NCBI RefSeq assembly: GCF_032116555.1
Contig: NZ_CP134949.1
Span: 930,001-994,000 of the forward strand
Direction: 5' to 3'
DNA: 64,000 bases
Source: Halobaculum sp. XH14
Lineage (GTDB): Archaea; Halobacteriota; Halobacteria; Halobacteriales; Haloferacaceae
Below are positions 54,271 to 62,404 of this stretch, piece after piece. The notes beneath the pieces were generated by a model that was given only the letters and a program-made list of their open reading frames with translations, ran no database searches and was not told where the DNA came from. The translations under genes and the position numbers were made by a program. The first letter of the stretch is position 1; every line of letters starts with the position of its first letter.

Positions 54271-54948
54271 TCACGATCGGGTGAACTCCTCCCGAACCGA
54301 CTCCAGTTGCCTGCGCGTGTTGACGTTGCTGGTGGACCGGTCCAGCGGGACGTCGTCCGGGACCGACGCCGGGGAGACGGTGTGGACGCTCTCGAGCCCC
54401 GCCAGCAGCGCCCGCGGGCCCGCCGTCCGCGGGAGCAGACGGTGCAGCGAGGCGACGGGCTCCCGCCGATAGACGGCGTGGAGCGGGTTGAGGGTTCCAT
54501 CCGGGTGCTCGATCGCGACCGCGTCGACCCGGCCCCCGTCGATCGCCGGACGGTCGCGGTCGAGCCGCGCCAGCAGCCACGACACCGCGCGCTCGTCGAG
54601 CAACGGCATGTCGCAGCCGCAACAGAACAGCCAGGGGTCCCCGACGGCGGCCGCGGCGCCGACGATTCCCGCCAGGGGTCCCTCGTACTCCGGGTCGTCG
54701 CGGACGAACGCAACCTCGCCGTCCCGCAGGGCGTCGGCGTACCGCGCGCGCTGCTCGGGAGTCCGGACGGCGACGACCGGACGCCGGTCCGTGACCCGAG
54801 CCAGGACGGCGACGATCCGGCCCAGCACGGGTTCGGAGCCGACCCCCGCGAGCGCCTTGTCGTCCCCTTCGGCCCCGAAGCGGCTGCTCTCGCCGCCAGC
54901 GAGGACGACTCCCCGGACCGATTCTGACTCGCCGTGCGTCACTGGCAT
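54271..54948 (-). CDS. mobA: Molybdenum cofactor guanylyltransferase MobA
   Basis: Adds GMP to molybdopterin to give the bis-MGD form used by formate dehydrogenase and relatives. The 225-residue product has VVLAGGESSRFG, DKALAGVGS, and FCCGCDMPLLDE with catalytic Asp. The position just after the molybdoprotein operon makes functional sense. ATG at 54948; the reading frame upstream is Arg-rich noise. Its end is convergent with the aldehyde dehydrogenase. Confidence 0.9.
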   Translation of the reverse strand: MPVTHGESESVRGVVLAGGESSRFGAEGDDKALAGVGSEPVLGRIVAVLARVTDRRPVVAVRTPEQRARYADALRDGEVAFVRDDPEYEGPLAGIVGAAAAVGDPWLFCCGCDMPLLDERAVSWLLARLDRDRPAIDGGRVDAVAIEHPDGTLNPLHAVYRREPVASLHRLLPRTAGPRALLAGLESVHTVSPASVPDDVPLDRSTSNVNTRRQLESVREEFTRS

Positions 54949-54992
54949 CGACGCCTCCGTTCTCGACCGGAAAGACCCGTTCGGCACATCGC

Positions 54993-57026
54993 TCAGTTGG
55001 GCTCCCCCCTCGGGTCCGACGTCGGCTCGACGGCGACGGTCGACGTTCCGCCCCGGAGAAGCGGGTCTGCGGCGGCCGCGGGGAGGTGAACCGTCCCCCG
55101 GCGGCCGCGCTCGTCGAGGGCCACGACGGTTTCGACGGCGACCGCGCCGGCGGAGACGACGACCGGCTCGCCCGCGTCGACCCCCCGGTCGGCGGCGTCG
55201 GCGGGGTGCATCCGCAGCGGTCGGTTTCCTCCGGCGTCCTCGTCCGGGAACTCGCTCGCCCGCCCGCCGGCGATCAGGTGGAGTCCGTCGGCCGGCCCGA
55301 CCTCGGGGACCGGTCCCGCCGTCCCGAAGGCGGCGCGCCCGTCGGGCGTCTCGAACGACTCGCGGTAGAGCACGCCGTCGTCGTCCTCGAACGGCCACCG
55401 CCGTCCCTCGGCGTCGATGTCGGCGTACGAGAGGCCTTGGTGGGTCGGCGCGACACGCGAAAGCTCGTCGAACACGGCCGACACGTCGGCGTACTCGAAG
55501 TACCCGTCCGTCGGGAACAGTCGCCGCCCGAGGTCCCGGAGGACGGTGAAGTCGGTCCGGGCGTCCCCCGGCGGCCCGCTCGTCCGCCGGAGCCGCTGGA
55601 CGCGACGTTCGAGGTTCGTGACGGTCCCCGTCTTCTCGACGCCCGCCGCCGCCGGCAGGAGCACGTCGGCGTGGCGGGTGGTCGCGCTCGGCGCGACCTC
55701 GAGGACGACGAGCGCGTCGAGGGCGTCGAGCCGCCGCCCGATCCAGTCGGGGTCGCGCTTCGAGACGGCCGGGTTCTCCCCGACGACGAGCGCGCCGTGG
55801 ACTCCGTCGCCGAACGCCGAGAGCAGTTCAGTCGCCGTCTTCCCCGGCGTGGCAGGCGGCGCGACGCCCCACGCCGCTTCGATCCTGTCGCGCGCGTCGG
55901 GGTCGGTGACCGGCCGGTGGCCCGGGAGCCGGTCCGGAACGCAGCCGGCGTCCGTCGCGCCCTGCTCGTTGACGAGCCCGCGGAGGACGAACAGCCCCGT
56001 CCCGCGGCGACCGACGTTCCCGGTCACCAGCAGCAGATCGAGAAGCGATCCGGCCGCCGTCGCTCCGTTCCTGGCGTCCACCTCGTCCGCGCCGTCCACG
56101 GGGTCCGCGCCATCCACGTGGTCCGTACCGTCCACCTCCTCCGTGCCGCCCTCGATGCCCGTGCCGGAGAGCGCGGCGACGCGGTCGGCGTCCGCGACGA
56201 GTTCCGCGACGCGGGCGATGGTCGACTCGTCGACCCCCGTCGCCGACACGGCGGCCTCGCGGTCCAGGTCGGCGACCGACGCCGCGAACCGGTCGTACCC
56301 CCGCGTCCGTTCGGCGACGAACGCCTCGTCGACGGCGTCCCCGCCGTCGAGCAGGTGCGCGTTCAGGAGGTCGAACGCCGTCGCGTCCGTCCCGGGACGT
56401 GGAGCGAGGTGGACGTCGGCCAGCCGGGTCGTCCGGTTCCCGACCGGGTCGACGTGGACGAGCGTCGTCCCGTCCGCGACCGCCGGCCGGACGAAACCGT
56501 CGAAGGCGACGGGCTGTCGCTCCGCCGGGTTCGCGCCGGCGACGATGAGGAGGTCGGCCTCCCCCAGGTCAGCCAGCCCGTTCGTCGTCGCCGGCCAGCC
56601 GACCCGCTCGCGGAGCGCCCGCGCGGTCGAGACGTGACACAGCCTGGCCCGGTTGTCCACGTTGTTCGTCCCGAGCGTCCGCGCGAGCTTCCCTAGCAGG
56701 TAGTTCTCCTCGTTGGTGCTGTGTGGCGCGCCGAGGAACGCCAGCCCGTCGGGCCCGTGGGCGGCGAGCACCGCCTCCAGCCCCGCGATGGCGCGGTCGT
56801 AGGCGGTCTCCCACGACACGGCCCGGAGGTCGCCGTCGTGGCGGACCCGCGGCCGCACGAGACGCTCGTCGCCGACGTCGAAGGCGTCGATGCCCGTCCG
56901 GCAGAGCCGCCCGTTCGGGTTGGCGGCGCCGACGACGCCCCGGGCGCGCGAGTCCTCGCCCGGTTCGAGTCGGCAGCCGACCGCACAGCCCGGACAGACC
57001 GTCGGCGGTGACGGCCGGTCGCTCAT
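54993..57026 (-). CDS. Molybdopterin oxidoreductase, FdhA paralogue
   Basis: 677 residues. N-terminal [4Fe-4S] cysteines at 11, 14, 18 and 42 (CPGCAVGC...LCRTG), then Mo-ligand Cys130 in NNVDNRARLCHVST. The segment order is that of formate dehydrogenase alpha: GAPHSTNEENYLLGKLARTLG; VVGENPAVSKRDPDW; C-terminal molybdopterin-binding part ending VVALDERGRRG. An insert with six-residue Gly-(Thr/Ala)-(Asp/Glu)-x-Val-Asp repeats (DNA 56076-56147) lies in the middle. It may be a second catalytic subunit or a different substrate enzyme. Confidence 0.87.
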   Translation of the reverse strand: MSDRPSPPTVCPGCAVGCRLEPGEDSRARGVVGAANPNGRLCRTGIDAFDVGDERLVRPRVRHDGDLRAVSWETAYDRAIAGLEAVLAAHGPDGLAFLGAPHSTNEENYLLGKLARTLGTNNVDNRARLCHVSTARALRERVGWPATTNGLADLGEADLLIVAGANPAERQPVAFDGFVRPAVADGTTLVHVDPVGNRTTRLADVHLAPRPGTDATAFDLLNAHLLDGGDAVDEAFVAERTRGYDRFAASVADLDREAAVSATGVDESTIARVAELVADADRVAALSGTGIEGGTEEVDGTDHVDGADPVDGADEVDARNGATAAGSLLDLLLVTGNVGRRGTGLFVLRGLVNEQGATDAGCVPDRLPGHRPVTDPDARDRIEAAWGVAPPATPGKTATELLSAFGDGVHGALVVGENPAVSKRDPDWIGRRLDALDALVVLEVAPSATTRHADVLLPAAAGVEKTGTVTNLERRVQRLRRTSGPPGDARTDFTVLRDLGRRLFPTDGYFEYADVSAVFDELSRVAPTHQGLSYADIDAEGRRWPFEDDDGVLYRESFETPDGRAAFGTAGPVPEVGPADGLHLIAGGRASEFPDEDAGGNRPLRMHPADAADRGVDAGEPVVVSAGAVAVETVVALDERGRRGTVHLPAAAADPLLRGGTSTVAVEPTSDPRGEPN
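56076..56147. repeat. 18-base x 4 tandem repeat in coding DNA
   Basis: Units at 56076-56093, 56094-56111, 56112-56129 and 56130-56147, about 75-95% identical, encoding repeated Val-Asp-Gly-(Ala/Thr)-Asp on the minus strand. It lies within the 677-residue molybdoprotein gene and keeps frame. Confidence 0.85.
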
Positions 57027-57038
57027 CGGCCCACCACC

Positions 57039-57653
57039 CTATCGGCTCCCCAGCCGGTGGCCCAGAGCCCGCAGGAGTGCGAGGAGGTAGCCGAGGCCGG
57101 CGCGGGCGTCCCGGTCCCTGAGTCCGGCGAGCGCGCCGAGCGGGCCGACGGGCTCGGCCGCCTCGCCCGCCTCCCCGACGGCACCGAGCAGGTCGTTCAG
57201 TCCCTCCACCGCCTCCGCGTCGAGGTCCAGCGCCGAGAGCGTCCCCGCGAGGGCGACGAGTTCCTCCAGGCTGCCGTCACGCTGGAGCGTCAGAACCACG
57301 TCGAGCGCCTCGACCAGTTCCGCCCCGTTCGCGCCGACCTCCTCGGCGAGCGCGGCCGCCTCCTCGGTCGAGAGCCCGTCGGCGGCCGCGACGAGGTTCG
57401 CGGTCGAGTCGGTGAGCCGGTCGAGTTCGTCCTCGTCGGCGCTGGCGACCACCAGAATCGCCGTGGCGAGCAGGTCCGACAGTTCGTCGCTGGCGTCGAT
57501 CGCCGCCGCGAGCCGGTCGCCGTGTTCCGCGATCGCCTCCCGGACCGCCGCCTCGCCGTCGCCGGCCTCGCTGCCGTCGCCGGCCCCGTCCACGCTCCCG
57601 GTCTCTCCCCGGTTCGTTGCCGACTCCGGGTACGTATCGCGCGGCTCCGCCAT
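57039..57653 (-). CDS. DUF1641 protein of the formate dehydrogenase operon
   Basis: 204 residues. Acidic N-terminal 50, then an all-helical body with DELSDLLATAILVVASADEDELDRL, LVEALDVVLTLQRDGSLEELVALAGTLSAL and a C-terminal GLGYLLALLRALGHRL. DUF1641 proteins are encoded next to FdhA in many organisms; the function is unknown. Starts 2 bases after the fdhA stop and ends 12 bases before the 677-residue gene, so it is in the operon. Confidence 0.85.
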   Translation of the reverse strand: MAEPRDTYPESATNRGETGSVDGAGDGSEAGDGEAAVREAIAEHGDRLAAAIDASDELSDLLATAILVVASADEDELDRLTDSTANLVAAADGLSTEEAAALAEEVGANGAELVEALDVVLTLQRDGSLEELVALAGTLSALDLDAEAVEGLNDLLGAVGEAGEAAEPVGPLGALAGLRDRDARAGLGYLLALLRALGHRLGSR

Positions 57654-57655
57654 CG

Positions 57656-59929
57656 TCAGTCGTCCCCCGTCCCGGTCCCGACGTCGCCGGCCCCGATCGG
57701 CTCCGAGTCGCCCTCGTACGGGCCGATCCTGACGGCAGACACCTTGTACTCCGGCGTGGCCGCGTCCGGATCGAGGTGTTCCTCGTCGGTCAGCCGGTTG
57801 ACGGCGCTCTCGGCGAAGTGGATCGGCACGAACACGGTGTCGGTGCCGACCCGATCGGTCACCTGGGCCGGGACGACGATCTCGCCGCGGCGCGAGGCGA
57901 CCGTGACCATGTCGCCGGGGTCGATGCCGTGGTTCGCGGCCGTCTCCGGGTGGACCTCGACGAAGTCGCTCGGCGCGTACTCCATCAGCCCCTCCTCCCG
58001 GTGGGTCATCGTCCCCGTGTGGTACTGGTAGAGGACGCGCCCGGTCGTGAGCGTGAACGGGTACTCCTCGTCGGGCGTCTCGGCCGGTTCGCTGTAGCCG
58101 ACGCCGTGGAGGGTCGCCCTGCCGTCCTCGGTGTCGAACGAGTCCTCGTAGAGCCGCTCGGTTCCCGGGTGGTCCTCGTCCGGGCAGGGCCACTGGAGGC
58201 CGCCCTCCTCCCTGACGCGCTCGTGTGTCACGCCGCCGTAGATGGGCGTCAGCGAGTTCACCTCGTCCATGACTTCCGCGGTCGACTCGTAGTCCCAGTC
58301 CCGTCCCATCCGGTTCGCCAGGTCCTGCAGGATCTCCCAGTCGGGTCGGGAGTCGCCCTTCGGCTCCATCACCGCGTTGACCATCTGGACGGTCCGGTCG
58401 GTGTTGGTGAACGTGCCCGTCTTCTCGACGAACGAGCACGCGGGCAGGACGACGTCGGCGTACTCGGCGGTCTCGGTGACGAACAGGTCCTGGACGACGA
58501 GGAACTCGAGGTCCCGCAGGACCCGTTCGGCGTGGTTGACGCCGGGTTCCGAGAGCGCCGCGTTCTCGCCGATGACGTACATCCCGCGGAGGTCGCCCCG
58601 GTCGGCCGCCAGGAACATCTGGGTGGTGTAGTAGCCGTACTCCGGCGAGATGTCGCAGTCCCAGGCGTCCTCGAACCGCGCGCGGACATCGTCGTCCGCG
58701 AGGTCCTGATAGCCGGGGAAGTTGTCCGGGAGCGGCCCCATGTCCCCGCCGCCGCCCTGGACGTTGTTCTGGCCCCGGAACGGCGAGACGCCCGCGCCCG
58801 GCTTGCCGAGGTTGCCGGTGATCGCCGCGAGGTTCGCCATCGCCAGCACGTTCTCGGTCCCGTGGGAGTGCTCCGTGAGCCCCAGCGTCCAGCCGAACAC
58901 GCAGGCGTCCGCGTCGGCGATGGTTTCGGCCGCCGCCTCGATCTCCTCGGGCGGGACGCCCGTCACCGCCTCGACGCGTTCGGGCGTGAACTCCCGGACG
59001 GCCGCCGCGACGTCCGCGAACCCGGTCGTCCGCTCGGCAACGAACGACTCGTCGTACAGGCCGTTCTCGACGACGTGCCGGATGATGCCGTTGATCCAGA
59101 CCGCGTCGTAGCCGGGTCGCACCCTGCTGTACTGGGTGGCGTACTCGGCGATCTGGACCTCGCGCGGGTCGAACACCAGCAGGTCCGCGCCGTCCCGGAC
59201 GTTCTGCTTGATCCGCGTGGCGAGCACCGGGTGGGCCTCGGTCGTGTTCGACCCCGTCAGCAGGATGCAGTCGGCGAGTTCGAGGTCCTCGGTGCTGATC
59301 GAGGCCGCGCCGTAGCCGAACGTCCGGGCGAGGCCGGCGACCGTCGAGGAGTGACAGAGCCGGTTGCAGTTGTCGACGCTGTTGGTGCCGAGCACCTGCC
59401 GGGCGAACTTCCCCATCAGGTAGTTCTCCTCGTTGGTCGCCTTCGAGGAGGCGATCACGGAGAGGGCGTCCCCGCCGTGCGCCTCGCGGATCGACCCGAA
59501 CCCCTCGGCGACGCGCGCGAGCGCCTCGTCCCACGTCGCCTCGCGGAACTCGTCGTCCCCGTCGCGCACCAGCGGCGACGTCAGCCGGTCGTCCGAGTTC
59601 ACGAAGTCGTAGCCGAACTTCCCCTTCACGCACGTCGAGATGCCGTTGACCGGGGCGTCCTCCTCGGCGGTGGGTCGCGCCGCAAGCACCTCCTCGCCGT
59701 CGGAGTAGAGGTCGAACCGACAGCCGACGGCACAGTAGCCGCAGGTGGTGTCCTCGACGGTGAGTTCCTCCAGCCGACGGTCGCCGATCGACCGCGCGAT
59801 CTCGAACAGTTTCCCCTCCGGGAGCGTCTCGGCGGCGACGCCCTCGGCGACCTGCTCGACGTTCTTCAGCGCCTTCGCCCTCGCCCGCCGCATGTAGCCC
59901 GCGACCCCGTCGAGGTCGCCGTCGCTCAC
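57656..59929 (-). CDS. fdhA: Formate dehydrogenase alpha subunit (Cys-type)
   Basis: 757 residues. [4Fe-4S] Cys63, 66, 70 and 100 (CGYCAVGC...STC). Mo ligand Cys192 in DNCNRLCHSSTVAGL (selenocysteine in some homologues). KATNEENYLMGKFARQVLG, GSNTTEAHPVLA, GQNNVQGGGGDMG and the C-terminal VASRRGEIVVPAQVTDRVGTDTVFVPIHFAESAVNRLT are typical. Oxidises formate (or reduces CO2) at bis-MGD. The N-terminal 60 residues are a helical extension in place of a ferredoxin domain. ATG at 59929 overlaps the next gene stop. Confidence 0.92.
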   Translation of the reverse strand: MSDGDLDGVAGYMRRARAKALKNVEQVAEGVAAETLPEGKLFEIARSIGDRRLEELTVEDTTCGYCAVGCRFDLYSDGEEVLAARPTAEEDAPVNGISTCVKGKFGYDFVNSDDRLTSPLVRDGDDEFREATWDEALARVAEGFGSIREAHGGDALSVIASSKATNEENYLMGKFARQVLGTNSVDNCNRLCHSSTVAGLARTFGYGAASISTEDLELADCILLTGSNTTEAHPVLATRIKQNVRDGADLLVFDPREVQIAEYATQYSRVRPGYDAVWINGIIRHVVENGLYDESFVAERTTGFADVAAAVREFTPERVEAVTGVPPEEIEAAAETIADADACVFGWTLGLTEHSHGTENVLAMANLAAITGNLGKPGAGVSPFRGQNNVQGGGGDMGPLPDNFPGYQDLADDDVRARFEDAWDCDISPEYGYYTTQMFLAADRGDLRGMYVIGENAALSEPGVNHAERVLRDLEFLVVQDLFVTETAEYADVVLPACSFVEKTGTFTNTDRTVQMVNAVMEPKGDSRPDWEILQDLANRMGRDWDYESTAEVMDEVNSLTPIYGGVTHERVREEGGLQWPCPDEDHPGTERLYEDSFDTEDGRATLHGVGYSEPAETPDEEYPFTLTTGRVLYQYHTGTMTHREEGLMEYAPSDFVEVHPETAANHGIDPGDMVTVASRRGEIVVPAQVTDRVGTDTVFVPIHFAESAVNRLTDEEHLDPDAATPEYKVSAVRIGPYEGDSEPIGAGDVGTGTGDD

Positions 59930-60918
59930 GGCCAGTCACCCCCGTCGTCCCACACGCCGGCTCCCGGCGTTCCGTTCACGTCGGGCGCCCCGTCGGCGTC
60001 GGATCCGTCCTCGCTCGCGTTTCCGGCCGCGTCGCCCGCCTTCCCGTCCCCGCCGCTCGTCGGCTCCGCGCGCTTCTTCGGCGTCATCGGGCCGGACCGC
60101 TCGCCGGCGCGTTCGGACGTCTCCCCGACGCTGTTCGCCTGCGTGAAGCCGGGCAGCGGGATCGTCGTCGCGTCCACGATTCCGTCCTCGACGAGCGCGC
60201 CGGTCGGGCAGACGGTCGCGCAGTGGCCACAGGAGACGCACGTCGAGTCGGCCATCGTCTCCGCGTCGCTCTGGAAGCCGATGCGGGTGTCGCTCCCGGA
60301 GCCCTCCATCCGCAGGACGCCCTCGACCTGCACGTCGTTGCAGGCCTCGACACAGCGGTTACAGAGGATGCACTTGTTGCGGTCGATCGCGATGAACGGG
60401 GAGGTGTCGTCGAGCGGTTCGTACTCGTCCCGGTCGTCGAACACCCCGTAGCGCGGCTCCTCGACGCCCGCCTCGATGGCGGCGTCCTGGAGCTCACAGC
60501 GCCCGTTCTTCCCGCAGGTCGTACACCGAAGGTTGTGGTCCGAGAGCACCAGATCGAGGTTCACGTCCCGCGCCTCCGCGGCGTCGGTCGCGCCGGTCCG
60601 GACGGTCAGCCCGTCCTCGGCAGGGAAGCTACAGGCCGGGACGACGCCGTGTTCGTCGGTCGCCACCATGCACGTGCGACACTCGCTCCGGGGGCCGATT
60701 CCCTCCCTGCCGTAGTGGCACAGCGCGGCGACGTGCTCGTCGGTCTCGACCGCCTCGACGGCATCGAGCAGCGTCGCGCCCGACTCCAGCGACACGGCGG
60801 TGCCGTCCACCGTCACGGTCGCGGGCCCGTCGCTCCCGACGGCCGGGTCGGTCGCGGTCCCCGGCGCGATTCCCTCGGTCAGCGGCGGCACGTCGACGTC
60901 CCGCTCGTCGGAGCGCAC
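59926..60918 (-). CDS. NuoG-like iron-sulfur subunit of formate dehydrogenase
   Basis: 330 residues. [2Fe-2S] cysteines in ALCHYGREGIGPRSECRTC and VVPACSFP; a His-Cys3 cluster in DHNLRCTTCGKNGRCELQ; two [4Fe-4S] motifs, CILCNRCVEACNDVQ and CVSCGHCATVCPTGAL. This is the electron-transfer portion of complex I NuoG/HoxU without its molybdopterin domain. The C-terminus (about 255-330) is a Gly/Asp/Ala-rich disordered tail. Stop overlaps the fdhA start (ATGA). ATG at 60918. Confidence 0.9.
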   Translation of the reverse strand: MRSDERDVDVPPLTEGIAPGTATDPAVGSDGPATVTVDGTAVSLESGATLLDAVEAVETDEHVAALCHYGREGIGPRSECRTCMVATDEHGVVPACSFPAEDGLTVRTGATDAAEARDVNLDLVLSDHNLRCTTCGKNGRCELQDAAIEAGVEEPRYGVFDDRDEYEPLDDTSPFIAIDRNKCILCNRCVEACNDVQVEGVLRMEGSGSDTRIGFQSDAETMADSTCVSCGHCATVCPTGALVEDGIVDATTIPLPGFTQANSVGETSERAGERSGPMTPKKRAEPTSGGDGKAGDAAGNASEDGSDADGAPDVNGTPGAGVWDDGGDWP

Positions 60919-60919
60919 G

Positions 60920-62404
60920 TCAGGTCACCTCCGCCGGCTCGACACACTGGCCCGCGGGACAGCGCCCGTCCGCGTGGGCCGCGAACTCCGATTCGAACGC
61001 CGCGAGCGCGGTTCGGGCCGGTCGCCCCGCCCGGACGCCGAACGAACAGAGACTGGACGTGGCCATCACCCGGCCGAGTTCCTCGATGCCGTCGGCGTCG
61101 TACTCGCCGTCGTAGACCGCCCGCAGGAGCGCCGTGAGCTGTGTCGTCCCCTCGCGGCACGGCACGCAGCGGCCGCAGTTCCCCTCGGCCGCGAACCGCG
61201 CGCGTCGTCCGACGAACTCGACGACGCAGCTGTCCTCCGCGAGCACGTGAACCGTGCCGTCGGTCCCCAGGTTCGCGGCCGACAGCGCCTCGGGGTCGAC
61301 GCCGACGTCGAGGTCGCGCGTGAGCCCGCCGAAGCGGCCGCCCACGCAGGCGGCCTTGACCGTCCCCTCCACCTCGACCGCGTCGACCGCGTCGGCCAGG
61401 CTGTCGCTCTCCCGCAGTTCCACCGTCGCCGGCGCGGCCACGTCGCCGGTCACGGTCACCACCCGTGTTTCCGGCTCCCGTCCGTCCCTGAGCGCGATCG
61501 CGAGCTGGGCGAGCGTCCGGGAGGTGTGGACCAGCGTCGGCCGGCCGTGGAGTCCGACCTCCTCGGGGCCGGGCGGCCGGAGGCGGGCCTCCAGCCGGTG
61601 GTTGCCTTCGATCGCTTCCAGCGCCATCGTCGGTTCGGCGGCCCGGTACTCCGGCGGCCCGGCGACCACGTCGATGGGGGCCGGCGGGTCCGGGTACGTT
61701 GTTGCCGCCTCCCGGGCGGTTTCGACGGCCCGCTCGTCCGCGGCGGACGCGTACACGACGAGCCGTTCGGCGTCCACGGCCCGGGCGAGGGCGGTCGCCC
61801 CGTCGAGGACCTCGAAGGGCGCGCCGGCGAGCAGGAGCGCGTCCGCGGGGTTCCCGTGCCCGTTCACGACGACTGCGGCGTCGCCGTCACCGTCACGAAC
61901 GGTCCCCCACGTCTCCGCGAGGAACGCGTCCTGGCAGCGGTCGCCCCAGCCTCGTCCGCGGAGGCGAGTCCCGGCGTCCAGCACCGCGGCGGGGTCGGGA
62001 TTTCCGAACCCGCCCGCAGCCTCGTGGTCGGCCGGGTTCGTCGGGCGTCGCCACCCGCAGGCCGCAAGCACCGAACGATTCCCAACACCGAACCCGGGCA
62101 ACTCCGGGACGGGGAGCCGCGTCGCGTCGGGGTCGTGCTCGACGACGGCGTCCGGATCGGCCGTCGTCACGTCCCCGGCCTCCGCGACCGTCGAAACGAT
62201 CGTCTTCGCGCGCTCGGGCGGACACCGCGCGTGGAAGCCGGTCCGGCCCCGGCGCGTGACCGAGAGGAGCGGCTCGACGGCGGGGACGCCGGTCGACCCG
62301 ACCGCGAGGACCGTCGCGTCGGCGTCGGAACCCCGCAGTTCGGCTCCCTGAGCGGTCCCGGAGACCCGGACGACCGGGTCCCCCGCTGTCGATGTGAGTG
62401 TCAT
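60920..62404 (-). CDS. NuoF-like subunit of formate dehydrogenase with degenerate FMN/NAD site
   Basis: 494 residues. Matches the order of NuoF/Nqo1: Rossmann-like centre, SLBB-like part, then iron-sulfur domain with GNCGRCVPCREG (Cys410, 413 and 416) and LCSFG (Cys453). The FMN/NAD motif that should read GRGGAGFPTG is GRGWGDRCQD (150-159), and the NADES-EPG segment is NGHGNPAD (181-188). So flavin and NAD binding is doubtful. The N-terminal 120 residues are a thioredoxin-like or unrelated part. First gene of the operon. ATG at 62404. Confidence 0.85.
   Translation of the reverse strand: MTLTSTAGDPVVRVSGTAQGAELRGSDADATVLAVGSTGVPAVEPLLSVTRRGRTGFHARCPPERAKTIVSTVAEAGDVTTADPDAVVEHDPDATRLPVPELPGFGVGNRSVLAACGWRRPTNPADHEAAGGFGNPDPAAVLDAGTRLRGRGWGDRCQDAFLAETWGTVRDGDGDAAVVVNGHGNPADALLLAGAPFEVLDGATALARAVDAERLVVYASAADERAVETAREAATTYPDPPAPIDVVAGPPEYRAAEPTMALEAIEGNHRLEARLRPPGPEEVGLHGRPTLVHTSRTLAQLAIALRDGREPETRVVTVTGDVAAPATVELRESDSLADAVDAVEVEGTVKAACVGGRFGGLTRDLDVGVDPEALSAANLGTDGTVHVLAEDSCVVEFVGRRARFAAEGNCGRCVPCREGTTQLTALLRAVYDGEYDADGIEELGRVMATSSLCSFGVRAGRPARTALAAFESEFAAHADGRCPAGQCVEPAEVT

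Follow-up and report, generated by a model that had tools for sequence, protein, structure and literature searches.

A NuoF-fold subunit with replaced FMN/NADH loops in a haloarchaeal formate dehydrogenase-type operon

In complex I, bifurcating hydrogenases and NAD-linked formate dehydrogenases, the NuoF/HydB-type subunit is generally taken to be the port for NAD(H). A gene for a subunit of this fold, nuoF* (60920..62404, minus strand; 494 aa), opens a formate dehydrogenase operon in the 64,000-nt stretch of the Halobaculum sp. XH14 genome analysed here (the window), and public records label such haloarchaeal proteins after NADH-ubiquinone oxidoreductase. The initial annotation reported that two FMN/NADH motifs of this protein were replaced and proposed that the enzyme passes electrons to something other than NAD, for example ferredoxin or a membrane carrier, or that the subunit is purely structural. 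The locus therefore raises the question of whether NuoF* can still act as an NAD port and, if it cannot, by which route electrons would leave the complex. The literature searched, mostly outside subscription journals, yielded no description of this variant of NuoF.

Alignment with E. coli NuoF bears out both replacements. GRGWGDRCQD (aa 150-159; 61928..61957, minus strand) occupies the position of GRGGAGF(P/S)TG, GRGGAGFPTG in the motif first reported, and NGHGNPAD (aa 181-188; 61841..61864, minus strand) that of NADE(S/M)EPG..D, in which NADESEPG has given way to NGHG and NPAD on either side of a 4-residue deletion. Two more FMN/NADH loops, absent from the initial annotation, are replaced as well. 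In the third, YRAAEPTMALEAIE (aa 253-266; 61607..61648, minus strand) stands for Y(I/V)CGEETALINSLE, GEETAL becoming AEPTMA at aa 256-261, and in the fourth PTLVHTSRT (aa 289-297; 61514..61540, minus strand) stands for PTCVNNVET, with HTSRT in place of NNVET at aa 293-297. The ligands of the N3-type [4Fe-4S] cluster are all present, as first reported, C410, C413 and C416 lying at 61157..61177 and C453 at 61046..61048 (both minus strand). In Nqo1, NuoF and FdsB, NADH is reported to be held by Phe70/71, Lys76, Glu95-Ser96-Glu97 and Glu185 (PMC11677225, PMC6560083, PMC7171172); the aligned equivalents in NuoF* are Arg156, Thr165, Gly184 or a deletion, and Pro258. The pocket was judged from alignment alone, and on this basis FMN binding has probably been lost in the folded complex.

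Domain scores follow the same pattern. The Pfam profile of the Nuo51 FMN-binding domain matches NuoF* weakly (36.7 bits, cut-off 31.2) and only from profile position 29, the iron-sulfur region of NuoF matches strongly (70.1 bits), and the NCBIfam NuoF equivalog gives 94 bits, far under its cut-off of 559 and compared with 489 bits for a canonical homologue from haloarchaea. In addition, a search for a partner of the NuoE/FdsG type (PF01257) gave no match in the 99.9% complete Halobaculum sp. XH14 genome, although control genomes do match. With neither the FMN/NADH loops nor a NuoE partner, NuoF* is not classed as an NAD-binding NuoF. Membership of complex I was also considered and rejected, since there is no NuoE and the gene sits in a formate dehydrogenase operon.

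The loss of these loops does not appear to have disturbed the fold. An AlphaFold model of NuoF* built with 44 natural sequences (mean pLDDT 91.1, pTM 0.91) finds its best solved matches in the B subunits of NfnABC and HydABC and in FdsB (Foldseek E-values down to 1.6e-34; VIA Z 46.2 over 467 residues at 2.5 A), hence the full NuoF/HydB/FdsB fold is predicted to be preserved. HydB and NfnB of the electron-bifurcating complexes (9n5u, 9bov, 7p5h), which match across the whole chain, retain the FMN/NADH loops, the [2Fe-2S] cysteines of the N-domain and the C-terminal ferredoxin domains, whereas NuoF* has none of the three. NuoF/Nqo1 of respiratory complex I shares with NuoF* the fold and the N3 ligands but differs in its FMN/NADH motifs, its NuoE partner and its genomic setting. 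The thioredoxin-like N-domain of NuoF* is present without cluster cysteines; that this absence marks degeneration was considered and rejected, since the N-domain cluster is likewise absent from R. capsulatus FdsB (PMC7171172).

A known formate dehydrogenase with such a subunit is the NAD-dependent FdsABGD of R. capsulatus and C. necator (PMC7171172), which combines an FdhA-type subunit, NuoG-type clusters and a NuoF-fold subunit with an N3-type cluster, and also shares the CH/RGQ motif and the cluster-free thioredoxin-like N-domain. However, FdsB binds FMN and NADH and is partnered by FdsG, of the NuoE type, whereas the haloarchaeal operon encodes a subunit with replaced FMN/NADH loops and adds a DUF1641 protein, and the search of the genome yielded no protein of the NuoE type. 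The intact fold and the largely retained equivalents of canonical pocket residues (N181, D188, E257 and T259) would be compatible with an ordinary NAD-dependent formate dehydrogenase whose NuoF* still binds FMN and NAD through diverged residues. Against this stand the alteration or deletion of all the NADH-holding positions named above and of both Asn of NNVET, together with the absence of NuoE/FdsG from the genome, and we consider this reading very improbable. The initial proposal of a non-NAD acceptor is partly supported: the loss of the NAD route has gained support, and one of the acceptors offered is favoured, as described below.

Comparison of haloarchaeal homologues, which the initial annotation had suggested as a check, revealed the same losses across a whole family. 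Of the 391 genomes sampled from the class, 156 are matched in a search with NuoF*, a few via canonical homologues, and the NuoF* family occurs in more than one third of the sampled haloarchaeal genomes; the 77 named loci are all haloarchaeal by name except for one record labelled only Euryarchaeota. In a tree of 119 rows, 104 NuoF* proteins are split by a fully supported branch of length 0.93 from 15 canonical rows, which come from haloarchaea, from elsewhere in the phylum and from E. coli. The tree was built by a quick method and contains long branches, which leaves the exact position of the outgroup unsure. All four motifs are replaced in the 104 relatives, which form one clade, with the consensus forms GRG[W/R]GD, VVNxHG or VVNANE, A[A/G]EPTMALEA and HTPRT, and the replacement maps as a single change on the tree. 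Canonical homologues from the same class and phylum retain normal FMN/NADH motifs, and canonical HydB-type proteins with all motifs occur in some haloarchaea (loci L034-L037), hence the class is able to make the normal version. The FMN/NADH pocket thus appears to have been rewritten once, in the ancestor of the haloarchaeal family, and kept since.

The replaced loops bear the marks of a maintained structure. D155, D188, E263, R274 and R296 are invariant in all 104 NuoF* proteins, H293 is found in 103 and T294 in 102, and the four loops average 0.95 bit of entropy, compared with 1.48 across the fold region (random segments, p 0.023). Since the replacement motifs are conserved and the dN/dS of close pairs lies between 0.11 and 0.45, the nuoF* genes are under purifying selection and are not decaying through disuse. 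Chance, a pseudogene or a sequencing error was rejected for the same reasons and because the frames of the relatives are open. Two disrupted copies were noted: in Natronorubrum thiooxidans the NuoF-like gene is interrupted by an in-frame TGA and fdhA is open (L137 8800-10419, also L085), and in Halorussus amylolyticus the NuoF-like gene is reduced to a partial frame beside an fdhA that looks intact (L167, also L087).

Such conservation could mean that the rewritten pocket binds a different ligand (another form of flavin, F420 or a regulatory nucleotide), making NuoF* an electron exit or a control site. The low entropy of the loops, the newly invariant D155, R274 and R296 with the near-invariant H293 and T294, and the low dN/dS all point this way, but no candidate ligand can be named and loop conservation could equally serve packing or subunit contacts; furthermore, in the type B relatives without N3 described below, a redox ligand in the pocket would be left unconnected to the other clusters. 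We regard this as rather unlikely. In a related and similarly doubtful form of the idea, the cavity might have been rebuilt around D155, R274, R296 and H293 for another ligand, or for direct contact with a quinone or a protein carrier, and would serve as a flavin-free electron outlet on the NuoF fold.

The operon around nuoF* encodes the remainder of a putative formate dehydrogenase complex, which is probably cytoplasmic. The gene nuoG' (59926..60918, minus strand) encodes the NuoG N-terminal domains as a separate protein with one [2Fe-2S] cluster, one His-Cys3 [4Fe-4S] cluster and two further [4Fe-4S] clusters. It is followed by fdhA (57656..59929, minus strand), the formate dehydrogenase catalytic subunit, by the gene of a ForE-like DUF1641 protein (57039..57653, minus strand; PF07849, 40.3 bits against a cut-off of 21) and by fdhA2 (54993..57026, minus strand), a second FDH-like molybdopterin subunit in which LCH is retained and RGQ has become RGL. 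A mobA-like NTP transferase gene (54271..54993, minus strand, start position not fixed; PF12804), associated with molybdenum cofactor guanylylation, lies beyond it. The second subunit is present in nearly all operons of type A, defined below, and the copies read retain the LCH motif and the cysteines of the Fe-S cluster, with RGL or RGP in place of RGQ. Elsewhere in the window, a nickel insertion protein (PF01969; 10010-11572, plus strand) has no bearing on the NuoF* finding.

FdhA scores above the Fdh-alpha equivalog cut-off (TIGR01591, 819 bits against 666) and carries the active-site motifs LCHSST and FRGQNNVQG, that is, CH...RGQ. Its nearest solved structure is ForC1/YjgC (658 bits), ahead of FdsA-type chains (530-552). 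FdhD is required for sulfuration of the cofactor in the formate dehydrogenases that have been studied. A search for this sulfurtransferase (PF02634) matched 8 of 14 control genomes and none of the 391 haloarchaeal genomes, yet FDH-like operons are common in the class; either the class replaces FdhD, or its enzymes work without it. Hence some doubt attaches to the name formate dehydrogenase, despite the passed cut-off. That the complex oxidizes or reduces another small substrate would also accord with the altered motif of the second molybdopterin subunit and with the result that formate-tetrahydrofolate ligase was not found in the Halobaculum sp. XH14 genome. This alternative is nevertheless improbable in our view: the score and the CH/RGQ motif of FdhA speak for formate, the operon adjoins C1-tetrahydrofolate genes in some relatives, and formate-oxidizing haloarchaea are known (PMC5437934), to which the same question about FdhD would apply.

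Two types of operon carry nuoF*. Type A, which includes the operon of this window, has the order nuoF*-nuoG'-fdhA-DUF1641-fdhA2 and corresponds to a single clade in the NuoF* tree (38 rows, support 100). In type B, nuoF* is followed by a fused or split nuoG-fdhA. DUF1641 was found in 24 of 24 type A loci (complete named loci with enough downstream sequence) and in none of 49 type B loci. The types also differ in the N3 cluster, the cysteines of which are intact in 38 of 38 type A NuoF* proteins, compared with 52 of 66 in type B, where the other 14 have lost at least one ligand in at least five independent events on the tree (e.g., L041, L044, L083, L088 and L147). In the NuoG part, all 12 Cys pairs of ligands and H128 are invariant in 24 type A and 50 type B loci, so that the electron path between the Mo site and the NuoG clusters is constrained everywhere. 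N3 can apparently be dispensed with in type B and, with all NuoG ligands kept, the exit is probably not from N3 to a flavin. The repeated loss of N3, which would feed FMN, also counts against an ordinary NAD-dependent enzyme.

The simplest reading of these patterns is that electrons no longer exit via NuoF*, at least in type B. The suggestion that the subunit is purely structural gains from the repeated losses of N3 in the sister clade. It is less probable for type A, since retention in all 38 proteins suggests that N3 still does something there. In type A, the cluster may make NuoF* a relay as well as a cap. The two types, N3 and DUF1641 being fixed in one and N3 repeatedly lost in the other, amount to a natural experiment on the purpose of N3 without a flavin.

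The DUF1641 protein offers a candidate for the exit in type A. B. subtilis ForE is likewise a DUF1641 protein, and ForC1 without ForE1 loses its formate:menadione activity and nearly all of its bound menaquinone (PMC8808070). A 2026 review that covers the ForCE structure 8RQZ places lipid in cavities of the ForC-ForE interface and assigns to ForE a role in electron transfer to the quinone pool (PMC13397495). Menaquinones are present in haloarchaea (PMC5437934). Because the operon gene is the sole DUF1641 gene found by a search of the Halobaculum sp. XH14 genome, NuoE is missing, ForE has this role in Bacillus and FdhA is nearest to ForC1, we propose that the type A complex may be a formate:menaquinone enzyme. 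Among the acceptors first offered, the membrane carrier is accordingly the favoured one, with DUF1641 present in all type A loci, and by analogy with ForCE menaquinone is favoured over ferredoxin.

Several observations weigh against the menaquinone proposal. DUF1641 occurs in 221 of the 391 haloarchaeal genomes, many of them without a type A operon, and is therefore not a specific mark of quinone reduction. The CQ...RGH signature of the ForC subfamily (PMC8808070) is absent from FdhA, which has CH...RGQ in the window and in relatives, and FdhA of type B is also nearest to ForC1, though type B lacks DUF1641. The model of the DUF1641 protein is poor (pLDDT 68, pTM 0.32) and gave no match to the ForE fold, and a profile comparison finds ForE1 weakly (E 0.017), ranked below a ribosomal protein. 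The retention of N3 in all 38 type A proteins also speaks against the proposal in so far as the cluster still has a function. An N-terminal segment of FdhA shared with ForC was considered as a ForE docking site and dropped, since the 58-aa piece by itself has no match to ForC.

The likeness to the menaquinone-linked ForCE (B. subtilis YjgC/YjgD; PDB 8RQZ, PMC8808070) thus consists of the nearest catalytic subunit, NuoG-type clusters and an adjoining DUF1641 gene. ForC is one fused chain with CQ/RGH, whereas the haloarchaeal operon has a separate NuoG' and CH/RGQ, and it adds NuoF* and fdhA2 to a system for which neither a NuoF subunit nor a second FDH-like subunit has been described. Because FdhA lacks the CQ/RGH signature, the complex is not classed as ForCE, although we infer by analogy that it works in a similar way.

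Alternatively, N3 or one of the NuoG clusters could pass electrons to a soluble carrier such as the haloarchaeal ferredoxin, DUF1641 then serving in assembly only. ForE also helps to keep ForC1 intact (PMC8808070), N3 is retained in all type A members, and type B must use some acceptor without DUF1641. However, the operon shows no ferredoxin gene, N3 can be lost in type B and the known partner enzyme of DUF1641 is quinone-linked, which leaves the soluble carrier with a minor share of our expectation.

The reading that we prefer, and hold at about an even balance of belief and doubt, is that of an NAD-independent formate dehydrogenase. Formate would be oxidized at the Mo/W site of FdhA, and the electrons would then cross the cluster of this subunit and those of the NuoG-like part. 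In type A, menaquinone in the membrane would take them up at a site to which the ForE-like DUF1641 subunit contributes, as in Bacillus ForCE. NuoF* would be a structural cap, possibly with a role as one-electron relay or store through N3, and would have no diaphorase role. As NuoF* has kept its fold and given up its FMN/NAD residues, metabolic models in which haloarchaeal formate oxidation yields NADH are probably wrong.

The physiological setting was approached through gene neighbours. In Halomicrococcus, the operon adjoins genes for formate-THF ligase, a trimethylamine-methyltransferase family protein, an FAD-dependent oxidoreductase and Etf, and in Haloarcula hispanica it adjoins FolD and a BCCT transporter. 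A C1 gene lies within reach in just 24 of 137 locus records and, as the genome of the window lacks a detectable formate-THF ligase, a C1-folate neighbourhood was dropped as a general rule and is taken as a lead only. At two loci (L182 1-12000 and L181 853-6019), the tetrahydrofolate C1 genes, the trimethylamine-methyltransferase family gene, the Etf genes and the BCCT transporter beside relatives of the operon hint at the oxidation of osmolyte methyl groups.
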